Origin: an uncultured Anaeroplasmataceae bacterium
GTDB taxonomy: Bacteria; Bacillota_I; Bacilli_A; Acholeplasmatales; Anaeroplasmataceae
Length of the DNA stretch: 42,760 nucleotides
Direction of reading: 5' to 3'
NCBI GenBank assembly: GCA_944325695.1
Contig: CALVBA010000008.1
Coordinates: 1-42,760, forward strand
Part shown: piece by piece, positions 5,131 to 15,600 of the stretch
Numbering within the stretch: position 1 is the stretch's first letter
Layout: each line of letters begins with the position of its first letter
Position numbers and translations under genes: made by a program
The notes under the pieces: generated by a model
Databases searched by the model: none
Seen by the model: only the letters and a program-made list of their open reading frames with translations
What the model was told of the DNA's origin: nothing

Positions 5131-6351
5131 TTACAAGCTAAAGCTGAAAACACTACTTGAATCATGGAATTGTTCATTACTTACCCAAGTTACTGTTTTA
5201 TTTGTTAAATCATATAGACAAGACCAAACAGTAATACTGTTAGAATCTGATGCACCGTTATTAGCATCCCATTTTCTTCTTCCTACTGTTTCTAAGATGT
5301 CTAAACCTTGTTGTTTTGTAATAACTCCACTTGTATTTGTTCCATTTGGATTAATCATTTCTTCAATTTTGTTATAACGATCAAATCCACCTTTTTCACT
5401 ATCATCTTCATAATAATTTGGAGAAACAATAAAGTTTGTTACATATTGGAAATCATTTTGTCCTTCTTTTTCACCAACATATGCATCATCATTATTATAA
5501 ATAACTTTTAATTCACGTTTTGAACCATCAGTATCTGTTTTATCAGTACCATTAATCCATTCAACAATAGCACTTTTTCCTGTACTATCAGCAATCATAT
5601 AATGGAATGATGTACTAGCACTATCATGTAAATCGTATTTTTGAATTAATTCAATTGCCTTATCTACACTATCAGCATAATCCAAAACCATGCGTAACAT
5701 TGTTGTTGAAGTGATGTCAGGACGTTCAGTTTGTTGATCTGTAGATACAACATTATCACTTGGCCCTTGATATGTCATATAAATTCCACAAGATACTCCT
5801 TTTTCATTTATTCCATCAAGTGGAACATAAACAGAAGCTAAAGAAATTACTTTATCCATGATACCTTCAATTTTTTGACCATCTGTTAATCCTAAGAATT
5901 GTAAGTCAACACTAGAAATAGAACGATAACGTCCATTACCTGGATTTGTTTCTACAATCATCGCTGTTGTTTTTGAAAAATCATAGTTACGTCCAAAATA
6001 ACGTGTTCCATCACTTCCTTGTGCTGTAAATGATGAACATCCAATTGTTGGAGCTTCAAGAGAAATTGGAATAATTCCTTTAGTAAGATTTCCAACAATA
6101 AAATTAATTAACTCTTGGTCACTTGACACTCCACCTTGTTCAATGAATTCATCAAAGTAGTATCCACCTTTAACATCCATTTTATAAACTGGTGCTCCGT
6201 GTTCTGCATTACTTCCATCAACTAACATTTCAATTGACATAATTGATGAAATCTCATTACGCCACATAATCGCCACTACGGCGAATAATATCACAAATAC
6301 ACCAACTATAGATGCTAATGTTGTGATTATAATTTTTTTAATCTTTGTCAT
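5131..6351 (-). CDS. Membrane-anchored choloylglycine hydrolase-family (Ntn) amidase
   Basis: A linear-amide C-N hydrolase of the bile salt hydrolase / penicillin V acylase / AAT superfamily. The likely nucleophile is Cys105 in TIGCSSFTAQG, followed by FGRNYDF (Arg121, Asp124), INEKGVSCGIYM, MIADSTGKSAIVEW and YVTNF, all matching conserved positions of the family. A transmembrane segment (about residues 6-29) anchors it with the enzyme outside. The ATG at 6351 is chosen for GGAAGGAG upstream; a longer reading would start inside the promoter. Classical gut bile salt hydrolases begin Met-Cys and are cytoplasmic, so this one would need a ~104-residue propiece removed, and its substrate is open. 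406 aa, apparently intact. Confidence 0.85.
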   Translation of the reverse strand: MTKIKKIIITTLASIVGVFVILFAVVAIMWRNEISSIMSIEMLVDGSNAEHGAPVYKMDVKGGYYFDEFIEQGGVSSDQELINFIVGNLTKGIIPISLEAPTIGCSSFTAQGSDGTRYFGRNYDFSKTTAMIVETNPGNGRYRSISSVDLQFLGLTDGQKIEGIMDKVISLASVYVPLDGINEKGVSCGIYMTYQGPSDNVVSTDQQTERPDITSTTMLRMVLDYADSVDKAIELIQKYDLHDSASTSFHYMIADSTGKSAIVEWINGTDKTDTDGSKRELKVIYNNDDAYVGEKEGQNDFQYVTNFIVSPNYYEDDSEKGGFDRYNKIEEMINPNGTNTSGVITKQQGLDILETVGRRKWDANNGASDSNSITVWSCLYDLTNKTVTWVSNEQFHDSSSVFSFSL

Positions 6352-6379
6352 TTTACTATTCTCCTTCCGAACGTCTTTG

Positions 6380-6408
6380 ATTATATCATAATCTATTTTT
6401 GTTGACAA
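6380..6408 (-). promoter_or_regulatory. Promoter of the Ntn hydrolase gene
   Basis: -35 TTGTCA (6403-6408), 17-bp spacer and an extended -10 TGATATAAT (TATAAT at 6380-6385) on the minus strand, about 30 nt before the ATG. Confidence 0.8.
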
Positions 6409-6449: not shown

Positions 6450-6482
6450 AAAAAAAAGGAAGATTATCCGATTGAATCTTCC
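6450..6482 (-). terminator. Terminator of the suf operon, overlapping the end of sufB
   Basis: GGAAGATT (6458-6465) pairs with AATCTTCC (6475-6482) and an 8-nt T run follows on the minus strand. The sufB stop codon lies in the 3' arm of the hairpin. Confidence 0.85.
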
Positions 6483-7870
6483 ATTTCTAATTTAATTAAT
6501 TGATTTAATTCTACTGCATATTCCATTGGTAACTCTTTAGCAAATGGTTCAATAAATCCCATTACAATCATTTCAGTTGCTTCTTTTTCAGTTAATCCAC
6601 GACTCATTAAATAAAATAATTGTTCTTCTGAAACTTTAGAAACACTAGCTTCATGTTCAATATAAATGTCATCTGTTTTCCCAATATTCAATGGAATAGT
6701 ATCACTTTTTGACAGATTATCTAAAAGAATTGTATCGCATTCGACATGACTTTTTGATCCTTTAGCATTTGGACCACAAGAAACTAAACCGCGATAATTA
6801 ACTACGCCACCCAAACGTGAAATTGATTTTGAAATAATTGTTGAGCTTGTATTTTCTCCTAAATGAATCATTTTAGCTCCTGTATCTTGAAATTGTCCCT
6901 TAGAAGCAAAAGCGATACTTACGGTTGTTCCTTTGGCATTTTTTCCCTTTAAAATACAAGCAGGATATTTCATATTAATTCCAGCACCAATATTTCCATC
7001 AATCCATTCCATATGACCATTTTCTTCAACTAAAGTACGTTTTGTAACTAAGTTAATAATATTATTGGCCCAGTTTTGAACTGTTGAATAGCGACAATAT
7101 CCATCTTTCTTAACAAATATTTCAACAACTGCTGCATGTAATGAATCTTTAGAATAAAGTGGAGCTGTACATCCTTCAACATAGTGGATTGAAGCCCCTT
7201 CATCAACAATAATCAATGTTCTTTCAAATTGCCCCATTTGTTCACTATTGATACGGAAATAGCTTTGAACAGGTTTTTCTAATTTAACACCTTTAGGGAC
7301 ATATATAAATGATCCACCACTCCAAACAGCACTATTTAAGGCTGCGTATTTATTATCAGAAGGTGGAACTAGTTTACCAAAATATTCCTTAACTAGTTCT
7401 GGATATTTTTTTATTGCTGTATCTGTATCTGTAAAAATAACTCCAAGCTCTTCTAATTCGTGTAAAGTATTGTGGTAAACAACTTCACTTTCAAATTGTG
7501 TTGAAACCCCGGCTAAAAATTTTCTTTCACTTTCAGGAATTCCTAGTTTATCAAAAGTATCTTTAATTTCTTCAGGAACTTCATCCCAATCATTTTCTGT
7601 TTGTTTACTTGATTTAATATAATATGTGTAGTCATCAAAATTAATTTGTGATAAATCAGGCCCAAATTTAGGATTTTCTTGTTTTAAAAACGAATCATAT
7701 GCTTTTAGACGAAATTCTAACATCCATTCTGGTTCGTTCTTAACGTGCGAAATTTGACGAATAACTTCTTCATTCAATCCTTTTTCAGTTGTAAAAACAG
7801 AAGTTGTTTCCGTTTTAAATCCGTATTTGTATTCTCCTACAATATCATTTATTTTTTTCTTGCTTTCCAT
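6464..7870 (-). CDS. sufB: Fe-S cluster assembly scaffold SufB
   Basis: Core scaffold of the SUF system; SufB2C2D or SufBCD complexes build [4Fe-4S] clusters in the cytoplasm. The protein is 468 aa, the normal length, with SufB signatures [49 protein letters not shown] and [21 protein letters not shown], ending in the conserved [18 protein letters not shown]. The start ATG follows AGGTGG. It is the last gene of sufC-D-S-U-B, 20 nt after sufU, and is closed by a terminator that overlaps its last codons. Confidence 0.97.
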
Positions 7871-7890
7871 TTTACCACCTACTGGTCTTT

Positions 7891-8325
7891 TTATTTTTTA
7901 TCGTTAATTCCTTTTTCAACGGCCTTCCATGATAAAGTTACACATTTAATACGAGCTGGAAATTTACTTACCCCCGTATAAACAACAGATTCCCCTAAAT
8001 CAACTTTATCATTAACTTTTTCACCTTTGACTAACTCATAAAAATTATCGATAATTTCTAACGCTTCTTTTGTTGTTTTCCCTTTTAAAGTTTCACTCAT
8101 AATTGAAGCACTTGAACAGCACATTGAACATCCAATACCACTATGCTTGATATCAACAATAACATCATCAACAATTTTAACTTGCACATTAACATCATCA
8201 CCACATGATGGATTATTTAAATGAACTGTATAATAACCTTCATCGTTAATTAAACCTTTATTTTTGGGATTTTTGTAATGCTCCATAATCACTTGTCTAT
8301 ATAATTGTTCTAAATTATTATTCAT
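7891..8325 (-). CDS. sufU: SufU sulfur-transfer / scaffold protein
   Basis: Zinc-dependent sulfurtransferase that accepts persulfide sulfur from SufS. The 144-aa protein has Cys41, Asp43, Cys66 and Cys128, exactly the positions of the Zn ligands and acceptor cysteine in Gram-positive SufU, in [19 protein letters not shown] and RIKCVTLSW. The extra Cys69-Cys70 are additional. The ATG at 8325 is preferred because AAGGTGA sits 5 nt upstream; a GTG three codons earlier overlaps that site. Placed between sufS and sufB, as expected. Confidence 0.95.
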
Positions 8326-8339
8326 TTCATTCACCTTGC

Positions 8340-9551
8340 TTACATAAATTGTCTAAAAAAATCGCGGGCTTCAATAACTGTGTTAACAAATTTAAAAACA
8401 TCTTCTTCAGTATTATATAAATAAAATGAAGCACGTAGTGTTGATACTTGCCCTAACCATCGTGTTATTAATTGGGCACAGTGATGTCCAGCTCGAATAC
8501 ATACATCATTTTTATCAAATACAGAAGCTGCATCATGCGGATGAACTCCATCAATATTAAACGCAATAACACCGGTTTCACATGTCTTATTAAAAACAGT
8601 TACTCCATCGACATTGGCTAATAATTTCATCGCTAATTGACATAGACGATGTTCATGATTACTAATATTTTCCATTCCATATTCTTCTAAACATTCACAA
8701 GCCACTCCAAGTCCGATTGCTTCTGCAATAATTGGCGTTCCAGCTTCAAATTTATAAGGAATATCTTTATATGTAGCATTATCTTTCAAAACTAAATCAG
8801 CCATATCTCCACCAAATTCAATTGGTTGCATTTTTTCAAGAAGTTTTCTTTTACCGTATAAAACACCAATCCCTGTTGGACCTAACATTTTATGTCCGCT
8901 AAAAGCTAAAAAATCACAATCTAAATCTTTAACGTCTATTTTCATATGAGGAACTGATTGAGCAGCATCTAAAATCACAACTGCTCCAACACTATGCGCT
9001 AATCTAATAATTTCTTTAATCGGTGTAATATATCCCATAACATTAGAAACATGAGTAATCGCTACTACTTTTGTTTTCTCAGATAAAACACTTTTAAAAG
9101 CTTCTACAGTAATACGTCCTTCCTGATTAAGTGGAACATATTTTAATGTTGCTTTCTTTTTATTACAAATTCTAATCCATGGTAAACAACTAGAATGATG
9201 TTCTAATTCTGTTGTAATTACTTCATCACCTGCAAAAATAAAATCTTCGCCATAACTTGATGCCACTAAATTTAACGCTTGCGATGCTCCACGCGTAAAA
9301 ATAACTTCCTCAAAATCACTATTAATAAATTTTGCAATTTTGCTGCGAGCTTCTTCATATAAATCAGTTGCTTGATAACTTAGTTTATAAACTCCACGAT
9401 GAACGTTAACACCGATTTTTTCATAATAATTATCTAGAGCTTGAATTACTTTACGGTGTTTTAAACTCGATGCAGCACTGTCTAAATATGTTAAATTGCT
9501 ATTATTTTCCAAAACCGGGAAATCTTTTTTTATTTTTGTTATATCTAACAT
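8340..9551 (-). CDS. sufS: Cysteine desulfurase SufS
   Basis: PLP-dependent group II cysteine desulfurase that frees sulfur from cysteine for Fe-S assembly. The 403-aa protein carries the PLP lysine (about Lys221) in AFSGHKMLGPTGIGVLYG, the cofactor-binding ILDAAQSVPHM, and the catalytic cysteine (about Cys358) in RAGHHCAQ. The ATG at 9551 gives good spacing to AAGGGATG; the ATG three codons upstream is too close to that site. It follows sufD by 12 nt and precedes sufU by 14 nt, so the three are co-translated from one mRNA. Confidence 0.96.
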   Translation of the reverse strand: MLDITKIKKDFPVLENNSNLTYLDSAASSLKHRKVIQALDNYYEKIGVNVHRGVYKLSYQATDLYEEARSKIAKFINSDFEEVIFTRGASQALNLVASSYGEDFIFAGDEVITTELEHHSSCLPWIRICNKKKATLKYVPLNQEGRITVEAFKSVLSEKTKVVAITHVSNVMGYITPIKEIIRLAHSVGAVVILDAAQSVPHMKIDVKDLDCDFLAFSGHKMLGPTGIGVLYGKRKLLEKMQPIEFGGDMADLVLKDNATYKDIPYKFEAGTPIIAEAIGLGVACECLEEYGMENISNHEHRLCQLAMKLLANVDGVTVFNKTCETGVIAFNIDGVHPHDAASVFDKNDVCIRAGHHCAQLITRWLGQVSTLRASFYLYNTEEDVFKFVNTVIEARDFFRQFM

Positions 9552-9563
9552 TTTAATCATCCC

Positions 9564-10328
9564 TTACATTTTTTTATTAATACTATCTAGAACTAACTCT
9601 TGATGTTTTTCATCAACTTTTGCTATGAATGGATCAATAATTGCTTTTAAAATTAACAATTCAGCTTCTTTTTTCGATAGTCCACGGCTCATTAAATAAA
9701 ATAAATCATCTTCTGATAATTTACCGATGGCTGCTCCATGATTAGCTTCAACATCAAATTCATCAATCAATAAAATTGGTTCCGCTTTTACAATTCCATT
9801 ATTAGCTAAAATAAATCCGCGAGTTAATTGTTTAACTACTGCCATTTTAGCATTATTAATTACATGGCCAACAGTCTTGAAATTACAAGATCCACTTATA
9901 GAACTTACACCATAATTATTAACATATGATTTAGAAGATTTAGCTAAATGTTTTACATTTGTATGAATATTTTGTTGATCATCTTTAGCAATAGCTAAAA
10001 TATCTGCCTTGAAAGTAGAATATTCTTGTAATTCTACATGTAAATCAATTTTTGAATTTGTTCCTAAAACGATATTTGTCATTGTTACTGTAGCATTTTT
10101 TTGAAGAGTAATTGTATTTTCTTGTTTAACTTGTTCCAAAGAGCATGCAATAATTGTTACATTACTATTTTTTTCAGCAACAAGATCAAAACCTTTTGAA
10201 GAATAATTGTAAATGACATACGAACATCCTTCTTTAACAACCAAACTAGATACATTAGTATTATATTCAAAAACAATTGTTTCGTTAATTGAAGAATTTA
10301 AATCTTGATATTGTTTTAAATTTTCCAT
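9564..10328 (-). CDS. sufD: Fe-S cluster assembly protein SufD (short form)
   Basis: Partner of SufB in the SufBCD complex, needed for iron acquisition during cluster assembly. The C-terminal half is clear: [47 protein letters not shown], the SufB/SufD signature with the conserved His of ANHGA. At 254 aa it is much shorter than the roughly 420 aa of typical SufD, because the N-terminal region is reduced. It starts at ATG 10328, one base after the sufC stop, with AAAGGA inside sufC as ribosome-binding site; an upstream GTG is less likely. The frame is open throughout, so this is a compact homologue rather than a broken gene. Confidence 0.88.
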   Translation of the reverse strand: MENLKQYQDLNSSINETIVFEYNTNVSSLVVKEGCSYVIYNYSSKGFDLVAEKNSNVTIIACSLEQVKQENTITLQKNATVTMTNIVLGTNSKIDLHVELQEYSTFKADILAIAKDDQQNIHTNVKHLAKSSKSYVNNYGVSSISGSCNFKTVGHVINNAKMAVVKQLTRGFILANNGIVKAEPILLIDEFDVEANHGAAIGKLSEDDLFYLMSRGLSKKEAELLILKAIIDPFIAKVDEKHQELVLDSINKKM

Positions 10329-10329
10329 T

Positions 10330-11136
10330 TTAGTGTCCTTTATGAGCACATGACTCTAACATAATTTTATTATTTTTTTCTTCTTCAATTTCGATTCCTA
10401 ATTCTTCTTTAACAAAGTCATATCCTTGTTGATCAATCTTTTCAATTAATTCAAAACCACCAGTTTTAACAATTTTACCATTTATCATGATGTGGACAAA
10501 ATCTGGTTTAATATAATCTAATAAACGTTGATAATGCGTAATTAATAAACATCCAAATTCATCACTTACCATTGAACTAACATTTTCTCCAACAATGCGT
10601 AAAGCATCAACATCTAATCCAGAGTCGATTTCATCTAAAATTGCAAACTTAGGTTGTAACATTTTCATTTGTAAGATTTCATTACGTTTCTTTTCTCCAC
10701 CACTGAATCCTTCATTTAAATAACGATGTGGTAGATCTTCACGCATTTTAAGCTCACTACATGCTTTATCATATTTTGTAATAAATTTAAATAATGATTC
10801 TTCTTTCCCGCACGCTTTCATGGCTTGGCGAACAAAATCACTATTTGTTACTCCGCTAATTTCTGTCGGATATTGATAAGCTAAGAATAATCCTTTTCTA
10901 GCTCGTTCATCTACTGGTTTATCAATTAAAGATTCACCATCTAAAATAATATCACCTTGTGTTACATTGTATTTATTAGATCCCATAACAATACTCGATA
11001 AAGTCGATTTCCCTGTACCATTAGGTCCCATAATAACATGAACTTCATTAGAGTTTATCGTTAAATTAACTCCCTTTAAGATTTCTTTACCTTCAATTGA
11101 GGCGTGTAAATCTACAATTTCTAATGTATGCTTCAT
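10330..11136 (-). CDS. sufC: Fe-S cluster assembly ATPase SufC
   Basis: ABC-type ATPase that drives conformational change of the SufBD scaffold in the cytoplasm; it is not a transporter. Motifs: Walker A GPNGTGKST, signature FSGGEKKRNEIL, Walker B FAILDEIDSGLD, and the H-loop in LLITHYQRLLDYI. At 268 aa it is about 20 residues longer than usual because of an acidic and lysine-rich C-terminal tail ending in CAHKGH. First gene of the suf operon, start ATG behind GGGAGTG. A TATAAT (11168-11173) without a good -35 lies upstream, and no terminator separates it from 11211-12533. Confidence 0.96.
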   Translation of the reverse strand: MKHTLEIVDLHASIEGKEILKGVNLTINSNEVHVIMGPNGTGKSTLSSIVMGSNKYNVTQGDIILDGESLIDKPVDERARKGLFLAYQYPTEISGVTNSDFVRQAMKACGKEESLFKFITKYDKACSELKMREDLPHRYLNEGFSGGEKKRNEILQMKMLQPKFAILDEIDSGLDVDALRIVGENVSSMVSDEFGCLLITHYQRLLDYIKPDFVHIMINGKIVKTGGFELIEKIDQQGYDFVKEELGIEIEEEKNNKIMLESCAHKGH

Positions 11137-11210
11137 ATTTGTTTCACTCCCATTTCATGATGATTTGATTATATAATATCTTGTAAAAAAATGCTATTAA
11201 AAAGATAATT

Positions 11211-12533
11211 TTATTTTATTCTACTAATATGATTATTATCTTTTATAACTTTAGAAAAGTCTTTTTTACTATAAAAAACTTTCTCTATTACCTTAATTAT
11301 TTCATTGTAATTTTTTACTTTTATCCGGCTATCAAAATATTCATCATCAAATAATAAAGAATTATCTTCTGATAAATATAAAACATCCACTTTACCGAGA
11401 TTATTTTTAAGTTTTAAAATATTATTTTTATCTTTTGCAAAAATACGCATCGAATAAAAACCATCTTCTAACCATTTAATACTGTATGTAAGTTCATTTT
11501 TTAAATCAGTATTCATAATAAAATTAATTACTTTATTCAATAGTGTCATATCCCCAAGTATTAAATAAAATAAAATTTCCTTATTTTTTGGTGCCCTACC
11601 ATTAATATAATTTTTAAAGTATGTTTTTTTGCGTTTATTGTAATAAATCATTTCCATTTCGTTTTGCAAATCTTTATGATAAATATGTAAGATGTCATCA
11701 ATAATAACATGCGTAAAACGGTTAATTTTCTTTTCATCTAAAAAGTTATCAAGCTTTTTACGAGTATCTAATTTAATAGTTTCCGTATTTTCATAAGTGG
11801 ATGTTGAAACATTATAAGTTGCATGAGCATGGCATACTAAAAGTGGTATCTTAAAATCAATATTTTTAATGACATTATTAATCGTTGCTGCCGTCCTAGT
11901 AGTTAATAATGTAATATTACATCCACGCTTAATTAAAGTGTTTAGTTTATATTCTACATATCCATTCATCTCTAAACTATCCAAATTAACCACAAATAAT
12001 ACATTATTATTAGTATGTCTTTTGAAATGCAAATTATTTATCAGTAACGAAATTCCTAGTCCTATTAAAGTACAGGTAATTCGTGATAATGCAAAGCATA
12101 CTAAATTAAGATCATTATGATTGCCCACTGTAACCGATAAGTACGTTAAACATGTTACAAAAGTAGAGCTTGTTTGCTTAGTTAAAACAGTAATATAGAT
12201 TAAAGGAATAATTCCCAACGAAAAAATCGTATAACTGATAAAATTAGTAATATCGATTTGTTTAAAAAGCAAACTAAATAAAACTACTAAAACTCCGAAA
12301 AAACCACCCATTATAGATCCTATAGCACGAATTTTTGCTTGTTTGATAGAATTACTCTTATTTTGATGTAAACAATAAACTGTCGCAATTCCAGCAAAAA
12401 ATGGGGAATAATAGGATTCAAGTTCGACAAAAAAAGTATTTTTTAATGAAAAATACTTTAAAATAGCATCAATTAATAAGCAAATAAATACAGCTAATGA
12501 TGTTTTTAGAATTCTTAATCCGATTTTAGGCAT
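11211..12533 (-). CDS. FUSC/aromatic-acid-exporter-like membrane protein fused to a degenerate HAD (Cof-like) domain
   Basis: Residues 1-170 hold about five to six membrane segments resembling the ArAE/FUSC exporter module (YYSPFFAGIATVYC, AKIRAIGSIMGGFFGVLVVL). Residues 177 to about 430 resemble a Cof-type HAD hydrolase: LFVVNLDSLEMNGYV in place of the DxDGT loop, ITLLTTRTAATINNVI as motif II, a cap-like middle part, and a C-terminal segment where GDxxND should be (LSEDNSLLFDD). The nucleophile Asp is Asn183 and the motif IV residues are lost, so catalysis is unlikely. 440 aa, start ATG 12533 after AAGGGG. It lies 74 nt before sufC without a visible terminator. The family assignment is by eye; the function is unknown. 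Confidence 0.65.
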   Translation of the reverse strand: MPKIGLRILKTSLAVFICLLIDAILKYFSLKNTFFVELESYYSPFFAGIATVYCLHQNKSNSIKQAKIRAIGSIMGGFFGVLVVLFSLLFKQIDITNFISYTIFSLGIIPLIYITVLTKQTSSTFVTCLTYLSVTVGNHNDLNLVCFALSRITCTLIGLGISLLINNLHFKRHTNNNVLFVVNLDSLEMNGYVEYKLNTLIKRGCNITLLTTRTAATINNVIKNIDFKIPLLVCHAHATYNVSTSTYENTETIKLDTRKKLDNFLDEKKINRFTHVIIDDILHIYHKDLQNEMEMIYYNKRKKTYFKNYINGRAPKNKEILFYLILGDMTLLNKVINFIMNTDLKNELTYSIKWLEDGFYSMRIFAKDKNNILKLKNNLGKVDVLYLSEDNSLLFDDEYFDSRIKVKNYNEIIKVIEKVFYSKKDFSKVIKDNNHISRIK

Positions 12534-12559
12534 TCTAACAACCCCTTACAAACATTACA

Positions 12560-12588
12560 ATTATACTACAAAATGCTTATTTTAACAA
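12560..12588 (-). promoter_or_regulatory. Promoter of the FUSC-HAD gene
   Basis: TATAAT (12560-12565) with TTGTTA (12583-12588) 17 bp upstream on the minus strand, 27 nt from the ATG. Confidence 0.65.
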
Positions 12589-12604
12589 TATTAGATAAGA
12601 TAAA

Positions 12605-12634
12605 AAATGAAGCTTCATAAAAAGCTTCATTTTT
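12605..12634 (-). terminator. Terminator of nifJ
   Basis: AATGAAGC and GCTTCATT pair around a short AT loop, with T-rich sequence on both sides; it follows nifJ and may work in both directions. Confidence 0.8.
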
Positions 12635-12643
12635 AATAGTAAA

Positions 12644-15600
12644 TTAATTTTTTTCTTCGCTATAATCCATGCTTTGGTAACGTTTATACATTCTATATCT
12701 TCTTTGAGCATCTTTCTTGTTAGCTTCTAATAATTCATCAGCATGTTCTTTATTAGTTGATTTTAATTGTGCATAACGTCCTTCGCTCATTAAGAATTCA
12801 TCATATAAATCCCAATTTGGTTCTTTAGAATCTAATTGGAATGGGTTTTTACCTTCATTAACTAAAGTAGGATTAAATCTGAATAATGGCCAGTATCCAC
12901 ATTCAACAGCTAATTTAGCTTGACGTTGTGAGTTTACTAATCCACCTTTAATGTTATGTGCAATACATGGAGAGTATGCAATGATTAATGATGGTCCATT
13001 ATAACTTTCAGCTTCTTTTAAAGCTTTAATAACTTGAGCCGGAGATGAACCATGAGAAATAGTTGCAACATAAACATGTCCATAGCTCATAGCAATACTA
13101 GCAAGATCTTTTTTCTTACCTGGTTTACCAGAAGCAGTAAACTTAGCAATTGATCCAGTACGAGCAGATTTAGATGATTGCCCACCTGTATTAGAATATA
13201 CTTCAGTATCAACAACTAAAATATTTACATCTTCTTGGTTAGCAATAACATGGTCTAATCCGCCGTATCCGATGTCATAAGCCCATCCATCTCCACCGAT
13301 AATCCATTGAGAAACTTTAACTAAGTATTGTTTTAAAGATAAAATTTCTTTAGCAAATGGCTTAGTTTCTTTTTCACATAAAGCAATAATTTGTGGTGCA
13401 ACTTCTAATGTAAAATGACCTTCTTTTCTTGATTCAATCCATGATTGACATAATGATTTTAATTCTTCACTCATGTTGTCATAGTTTTCAACCATAATTG
13501 TTTGTAAACGATCACGCATTGTTTCATAAGCAATATTCATACCAAATCCAAATTCAGCATTATCCTCGAATAATGAGTTAGCCCATGCTGGTCCACGTCC
13601 TGATACAGCATTTTTTGTATATGGACTTGATGGGAATGATCCTGAATAAATTGAAGTACATCCTGTAGCGTTAGAAACAAGCATTCTTTCACCAAATAAT
13701 TGTGTGATTGCTTTAATATATGGAGTTTCTCCACATCCACCACAAGCTCCTGAGAACTCAAATAATGGTTGAGCAAATTGTACGTTTTTAACGTTATCTT
13801 TACCAGTAATATTATCTTTATAAGCTACTTCATTATAGAAATATTCTGCTTTAACATCTTGTTTATCCATAATAGCTTCATGGATTGGAACTAAAGCTAA
13901 TGCTTTTTCCTTAGATGGACAGATATTAACGCATACACCACATCCTGTACAATCTAAAACAGATACTTGAATACGGTATTGTAAGTTATCTAATCCTTTT
14001 CCAATAGCTTTTTTCATTGTTGTACCTTCAGGTGCATTCTTAGCTTCTTCTTCAGAAATTAAGAACGGACGGATACATGCATGTGGACAAACGAAAGAAC
14101 ATTGGTTACATTGAATACATTTATCAACATCCCAAGCAGGAACTTCATTTGCAACTCCACGTTTTTCATAAGCTGCAGTTCCAACTGGCATATGTCCATC
14201 TTTATAATCAATGAATGCTGAAACAGGTAAATTATCTCCCTCAATAGCATTTACTACATCCGCAATATTTCTTACAAATGATGGTCTTGTTTCATCAACA
14301 GTTTTATTTTCTAATGGTAAGTTAGCCCAAGATTCTTTAACTTCTACTTCGACTAAATATTCTGCCCCAGCATCAATAGCATCATAGTTCATTTTAACTA
14401 ATGCTTCACCTTTTTTAGAATATGTCTTCTTAGCAAATTCCTTCATTAAATCTTGTGCTTGAGCATATGGCATAATATGTTCATTTAATTTAAAGAACGC
14501 AGATTGCATAATTGTATTAGTACGACGACCTAAACCAATTTTATGTGCTAAATCAACGGCATTGATAATAAAGAAACGAGCTTTTTTCTTAGCTAATAAA
14601 ATTTTATAGCTATTTGGTAATAAACTTTCGATTTCTTCTTTTGGTGTTACAGTATTTAATAAGAATGTTCCACCATCACGTAAACCTTTAATCATTTCAA
14701 ATTTGTTTAAATATGCATCAGTTGAACATGAAACAAAGTGTGGTTGACTTACTAAATAAGTAGATCTAATTGGTTTTTTAGAGAAACGTAAATGTAAACG
14801 TGTTGATCCTCCTGATTTTTTAGAGTCATAAGCAGCATAACTTTGTGAATAGAAATCAGTATTATCTCCAATAATTTTTGAAGTATTTTTAACAGCACCT
14901 ACTGTACCGTCTGAACCTAATCCGTAGAATAATAATTCTGTTGTTTCTTTATCTGCTACATCACAAATCTCAGAGCAGTCTAAACTTGAATAAGTTACAT
15001 CATCATTAATACCTACTGTAAAGCGATCTTTTGCTTCTCCCCATAAGTTTTTAAATACTGCCAACATTTGTGAAGGTGTTGTATCTTTACTTGATAATCC
15101 ATAACGACCACCAATAATTAAAGGAGCATCTTCTAATCCATAATATAATCCTTTAACATCTAAGTATAAAGGTTCACCAACTGATCCTTGTTCAATTGTA
15201 CGATCTAATACAGCAATGCGTTTAACTGTTTTAGGCATTACATTAAAGAAGTATTTGCTACTAAATGGACGGTATAAGTGAACTTTTAATACCCCAACTT
15301 TTTTACCTTCTTTAGTTAATTTGTCAACAACCTCTTCTAAACAATCAGTTACAGAACCCATAGCTACAACTACATCAGTTGCATCTTCTGCTCCATAATA
15401 GTTAAATGGTTTGTATGTACGCCCAACTTCTTTAGAAATTTCTTCCATATAGTGGTTAACAATATCTGGAACATCTTTATAAAATGAATTTTGTAATTCT
15501 CTTGTTTGGAAATATACATCATCATTTTGTGCTGTACCACGAATTTTTGGATTTGATGGATTTAAAGCATTTTCTCTAAATTTTTGTAATGCTTCACGAT

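Follow-up and report, generated by a model that had tools for sequence, protein, structure and literature searches.

A FUSC/ArAE-type membrane protein with a predicted catalytically dead Cof-type HAD-IIB domain, encoded beside the suf genes of an Anaeroplasmataceae bacterium

We found that a gene of an uncultured Anaeroplasmataceae bacterium, located within a 42,760-nucleotide stretch of DNA (contig CALVBA010000008.1, hereafter the window), encodes one protein in which a FUSC/ArAE_1 membrane domain is joined to a Cof-type HAD-IIB domain. Judged by its motifs, the HAD part is catalytically dead across the whole family of such fusion proteins, and this pseudophosphatase-exporter family appears to be old and was seen only inside the class to which the window belongs. 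Both the architecture and the predicted loss of catalysis are, on the sequences compared, family properties and not peculiarities of the window copy. We propose, with a probability of about 50%, that the protein is a half-size FUSC/ArAE-type transporter whose dead Cof-type HAD-IIB tail serves as a ligand-binding regulatory domain. The gene and its two parts are located as follows.

11211..12533, minus strand: fusion gene (FUSC/ArAE_1 membrane domain plus HAD-IIB pseudophosphatase domain), one protein of 440 amino acids
12024..12533, minus strand: membrane part, residues 1-170, with Pfam FUSC_2 at 34-165, ArAE_1 at 3-166 and helices in the AlphaFold2 model
11265..12011, minus strand: HAD-IIB-like domain, residues ~175-423, from profiles, the AlphaFold2 model and PDB comparison

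The first-pass annotation had given the open reading frame at 11211-12533 without its strand; the frame was confirmed and assigned to the minus strand, with an ATG start codon at 12533 in the ORF list. The same annotation had described FUSC-like membrane segments in residues 1-170 followed by a HAD-like domain after residue ~175, and both parts of this description held. In the membrane part, FUSC_2 (PF13515) matched with an E value of 1e-9 and 39.0 bits against a curated cut-off of 25.6, ArAE_1 (PF06081) matched with an E value of 2.6e-9 and 37.8 bits against a curated cut-off of 22, and the AlphaFold2 model placed helices at residues 6-167. The HAD part was weakly visible from the single window sequence and plain from its relatives. 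The NCBIfam model HAD-SF-IIB (TIGR01484) matched the window protein with an E value of 2.5e-5 and 24.5 bits, below its 41.8-bit cut-off, and a phmmer search of the PDB with the window protein alone returned no match; a family profile (A1) was needed, which matched the HAD structures 1nf2 (1.2e-6) and 1nrw (9.7e-5). Among 20 aligned members scanned, PF08282 matched 18 (best 9.9e-19), as did TIGR00099, and ArAE_1 was likewise present in 18; the relative L058 scored 85.3 bits with TIGR00099, under the cut-off of 137. The window protein is shorter than most relatives (440 versus ~475 amino acids) and carries extra deletions. Its gene is present as a single copy, and a profile search of the window genome found no further ArAE_1 match besides the fusion protein.

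Structure prediction of the C-terminal part agreed with the profiles. AlphaFold2 models were obtained for the window protein (pLDDT 88.1, 35 aligned sequences) and for L058 (pLDDT 91.7, 34 aligned sequences), and the top PDB matches of both were HAD-IIB phosphatases. The window model matched one of these, 4dwo, with a Foldseek E value of 3.4e-10, and its HAD part superposed on 3mpo_B with a Z score of 19.6 over 231 residues, while the HAD part of L058 reached a best Z score of 26.0 over 260 residues. Like solved Cof-type structures, the window model has a HAD core carrying a type-II cap. The membrane part (residues 1-170) superposed on the aluminium-activated malate transporter AtALMT1 of Arabidopsis (7voj) with a Z score of 16.0, an rmsd of 3.6 and 13% identity over 159 aligned residues; for helical bundles, Z scores below ~13 may mean little according to the comparison tool, and the ALMT1 value exceeds that level. 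The Pfam ALMT match on the window protein is weak (E 0.0014, below cut-off) and agrees with this superposition. The match list of L058 was filled by HAD chains and gives little read-out on its membrane part.

The fusion recurs in many related bacteria. A search of genome contigs with the single protein found no relative, whereas the family alignment found 45 loci, whose records are titled Acholeplasmatales, Acholeplasmataceae, Anaeroplasmataceae, Izemoplasmatales and Erysipelotrichaceae, some being metagenome-assembled genomes titled Clostridia or Clostridium. The fusion gene was present in 23 of 60 relatives (the window's own genome included), all of them in the window's family, f1, which accounts for 36 of the 60. 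Across the class, 61 of 395 genomes matched at an E value of 1e-10, in many cases with just one of the two parts, HAD or membrane; matches spanning the full length fell in families f1, f9, f19, f22, f17 and f24, and denser sampling at 1e-35 found matches in 11 of 195 f22 genomes and 5 of 43 f17 genomes. In a phylum sample of 392 genomes, all 21 genomes with a match at 1e-30 lay within the class, four of them (f15) matching by the HAD part alone. No plasmid record matched across 80% of the query. The fusion was found on all branches of the gene tree examined. On this tree, neither the grouping of the window with its own family (p-AU 0.444) nor that with lake Acholeplasmataceae (p-AU 0.329) was rejected, so that the tree is compatible with a suf adjacency that arose once or twice.

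The catalytic motifs of the window copy were located as follows.

11973..11993, minus strand: motif I V-V-N-L-D-S-L, residues 181-187; Asn183 in place of the nucleophile Asp, acid/base Asp185 retained
11895..11903, minus strand: motif II T-T-R, residues 211-213; phosphate-pocket Thr211 and Arg213 kept
11823..11831, minus strand: NGA-loop position, residues 235-237, reading H-A-H; Gly absent
11361..11423, minus strand: region of motifs III and IV, residues ~371-391; Lys lost and GDxxND lost, the alignment being gapped here

These assignments agree with the earlier reading of an Asn in place of the nucleophile (N183), a TTR motif II (T211-T212-R213) and a degraded motif IV, motifs III and IV both being lost in the window copy. 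The proposal of a catalytically dead HAD domain could moreover be extended to the family. We compared 43 members whose HAD part is complete, using as live references two Cof HADs of the window genome and a HAD encoded beside the fusion gene of a relative (L071). In none of the 43 were the nucleophile, the acid/base residue and the first motif-IV Asp kept together. The nucleophile position was Gly in 32 members, Ser in 6, Asp in 2, and Asn (the window), Cys and Ala in one each; the two members with Asp (L068 and L022) have Glu and Thr, respectively, at the acid/base position and have lost the first motif-IV Asp, which no member retains. Decay of a live enzyme confined to the window was rejected as an explanation, as the relatives are dead too. 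A live copy was not found among the members of the fusion family compared, and 15 more distant members (families f22 and f17) showed no intact catalytic set; the closest relatives with full motifs that we saw are stand-alone live HADs of family f15 (L152:3465-4298 and L153:3230-4063). The live HAD at L071:3912-4688 (DMDGT, GDGFND) is of Cof type and lies 2 bases after a fusion gene, forming a tandem of a dead and a live domain.

Other positions of the HAD part were retained. At the acid/base position 42 of 43 members carry Asp or Glu, at the motif-II position all 43 carry Thr or Ser, and 42 retain the NGA-loop Gly, the window copy being the sole exception. Members from lakes and sediments (L058, and those of L031-L037 that are complete) still have the Lys of motif III and the last Asp of motif IV, whereas most of the window's family lacks one or both, a pattern that would point to stepwise decay after an early loss of catalysis. 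The 282 HAD columns were ranked by variability across 33 alignment rows of less than 70% identity; least variable were the NGA Gly (rank 1) and the motif-II Thr (rank 2). These two pocket positions were picked after the conservation had been seen, and the whole set of 14 motif columns, tested afterwards, was jointly more conserved than sets drawn at random, of which 18 in 50000 were as low. The ratio dN/dS was 0.041-0.185 for the HAD part in all 12 chosen pairs of close members, which are relatives outside the window's own lineage, and 0.027-0.117 for the membrane part in the same pairs. The low values for the HAD part mean that the dead domain is under selection, and purifying selection thus keeps it in the relatives.

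The surroundings of the gene in the window are as follows.

6464..11136, minus strand: sufC-sufD-sufS-sufU-sufB in transcription order, 74 bases downstream of the fusion gene
12603..12634, minus strand: terminator-like hairpin between the upstream nifJ gene and the fusion gene
12560..12588, minus strand: promoter-like TTGTTA-17-TATAAT, 10/12 matches, such sites occurring at chance frequency in the region

The suf genes were named by recognition of their translations and by the use of these as tblastn and blastp queries. As the first-pass annotation had noted, the gene lies just ahead of the suf operon with no visible terminator: sufC follows on the same strand, no terminator-like site lies between them, and the hairpin upstream of the fusion gene is the sole such site in 10300-12800. 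The promoter scan was uninformative, with 18 sites against 18.3 expected. The gene beyond the hairpin, nifJ, encodes pyruvate:ferredoxin oxidoreductase. At the other end of the cluster, a C45-type autoproteolytic acyltransferase/hydrolase-like protein is encoded after sufB (5131-6408; NF040521, 88.7 bits, cut-off 85).

The link to suf is real but lineage-specific. In the window's family, 14 of the 23 genomes with the fusion gene have it within ~5 kb of sufB on the same contig. In two others (G026 and G035) sufC follows the fusion gene before the contig ends (L064 and L060), and in G032 the remaining HAD part lies together with sufB on a further contig, which brings the adjacency to 17 of 23. 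In the other six (G001, G004, G007, G008, G010 and G013) the fusion gene and sufB are on different contigs. Of the 45 named loci, 40 were readable and 5 cut off; sufC came next in 20, at gaps that tblastn starts put at -7 to 51 bases, and no sufC followed in the other 20. The suf-linked placement was met only in the window's family, the members of other families lying away from suf. A role as a general Fe-S gene was rejected, something other than sufC being next in 20 of the 40 readable loci. A strong SufB match was obtained in 58 of the 60 relatives (search counts give 59, the G015 hit being weak and partial), and 35 of these 58 are without the fusion gene, so suf does not need it. A copy in G021 that lies away from suf (L051:9485-12563) adjoins an ArsP_2-matching gene, then nadA, and the next gene is nadB-like.

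We give somewhat less than even odds to the explanation that the suf link is inherited gene order only, the fusion gene being a passenger of a leuS-suf neighbourhood with no role in Fe-S assembly. The suf label on the gene tree required 6 changes, as compared with 17.8 for shuffled labels, a clustering that suggests mostly vertical inheritance. Furthermore, leuS lies upstream of the fusion gene in 19 of the 20 suf-linked named loci and directly adjoins sufC in four relatives without the fusion gene (L107, L110, L112 and L114), and part of the suf pattern is therefore old gene order. However, the window and L057 have kept the sufC side and lost the leuS side, and in several loci the frame of the fusion gene either overlaps sufC or stops just short of it. 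Passenger status would be compatible with either a sensor or a scaffold role of the fusion protein. In several relatives, a HAD_2-type gene of ~202 amino acids (motif DLGST; L067:7332-7940) is located between leuS and the fusion gene.

According to the function that we propose, the membrane part would be a half-size FUSC/ArAE-type transporter, probably working as a homo-oligomer, and its cargo may be an organic, perhaps aromatic, anion. Organic anions are passed by ALMT1 and by FUSC-type proteins. The HAD-IIB tail would have lost catalysis long ago and would now be a cytosolic regulator, whose pocket may bind a small phosphorylated metabolite without hydrolyzing it; binding could open or close the membrane part or make the protein a transceptor. 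In the window's family, the fusion might be expressed with the suf Fe-S system and serve it, for example as a reporter of some metabolite that SufS or SufBCD need for their activity. A ligand-binding gate or reporter would be the simplest use of the tail, since it explains the lost catalysis and the kept pocket together. The conserved pocket residues could nevertheless be kept for folding only, and the window copy, which lacks the NGA Gly, the Lys of motif III and a stretch around motif IV, may have an altered pocket.

The main rival of the ligand-sensor reading is scaffolding, in which the dead HAD domain would have a structural or protein-binding task, in oligomerisation or the docking of a soluble partner, and would bind no small ligand; we regard this as rather unlikely. 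It fits the retention of the fold while the catalytic residues were lost, and distant members (e.g., L167-L172), in which motifs I and II are largely erased while the architecture is kept, argue for it, as does the missing NGA Gly of the window copy. PcrP of P. aeruginosa offers a precedent of a non-catalytic, protein-binding HAD member (PMC12632274). On the other hand, the two HAD columns conserved most strongly in the main family belong to the pocket, and a pure scaffold would have no obvious need of them. In the window copy, the absence of the NGA Gly may mean either that the ligand has shifted or that the domain is drifting towards a scaffold.

SufS is a PLP enzyme, and it is conceivable, albeit very improbable, that the fusion protein moves or senses vitamin B6 in its service, a PLP-bound pseudophosphatase setting B6 flux through the FUSC part. 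In G021 and G030 (order leuS-pdxK-fusion-sufC; kinases at L163:5113-5928 and L164:5329-6144, fusion loci L024 and L022), a pyridoxamine-kinase gene either overlaps the fusion gene or is 1 base away from it, and in the distant G313 (L147:2230-3051, fusion locus L167) the spacing is 61 bases. Two of these three kinases exceed the NCBIfam pyridoxamine-kinase cut-off and L164 falls just below it. In four relatives (L106, L108, L109 and L111) such a kinase fills the slot between leuS and sufC, with no fusion gene there. None of the 36 genomes in the window's family gave a strong PdxS match, as against 9 of 24 in the order's other families, although some weak partial matches in the window's family pass the Pfam cut-off when in-frame neighbours are added, and the contrast is confounded with kinship, 15 of the 24 other-family genomes having neither a strong PdxS match nor the fusion. 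The kinase stands beside the fusion in only 3 genomes and in 0 of the 20 suf-linked named loci, and linkage to PdxK as a general rule was rejected on the former count; the window genome has one kinase of this type, located elsewhere. Pyridoxal-phosphatase profiles matched the fusion far below their cut-offs and unspecifically. The kinase neighbours, the PLP cofactor of SufS and the lack of a strong PdxS match in the family together underlie this reading and its more specific version, a transceptor coupling Fe-S assembly to B6, in which the dead HAD would read PLP and gate a FUSC/ALMT-like B6 channel, and to which we attach very little credence.

Scarcely credible is a HAD part that is merely decaying, the membrane part alone being of importance: the window copy does have extra deletions and has lost residues that nearly all other members keep, but the HAD dN/dS of 0.04-0.19 in 12 of 12 pairs of relatives and the retention of the fusion on every branch of the tree examined speak against it.

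The family would exemplify a metabolic phosphatase that long ago became the permanent, non-catalytic tail of a transporter. Were the tail a sensor, this would, to our knowledge, be an unusual kind of input to a FUSC-type transporter. The ~58 natural variants allow pocket and catalytic residues to be compared, and because the gene recurs just ahead of sufC, a connection of small-molecule transport with Fe-S assembly can be tested in Anaeroplasma-like bacteria. We found no description of a FUSC-HAD fusion in the literature searched, in which subscription journals were thinly covered.

Among known systems, the aromatic acid exporter-type proteins with ArAE_1/FUSC_2 are alike in the membrane domain, both profiles matching above cut-off, and differ in the cytosolic C-terminal part, which here is a HAD-IIB domain. 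The usual C-terminal partner of ArAE_1 is the helical ArAE_1_C domain. With the Cof-type HAD-IIB phosphatases (TIGR00099, PF08282; 4dwo, 1nf2 and SupH 2hf2) the fusion protein shares the fold, the cap type, the motif-II Thr and, in the relatives, the NGA loop; unlike them, it has lost the nucleophile and the first motif-IV Asp and is fused to a membrane domain. The PcrP/PA2803 subfamily is likewise described as a HAD member that has lost catalysis and taken a non-catalytic role, but PcrP binds proteins and is described as a phosphonatase-like HAD, and the abstract mentions no transporter fusion (PMC12632274). AtALMT1 (7voj) resembles the fusion protein in membrane helices that superpose on residues 1-170 and has a different C-terminal domain. 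Taken together, what is known here is the FUSC/ArAE-type membrane protein, and what is new is its pseudophosphatase tail.
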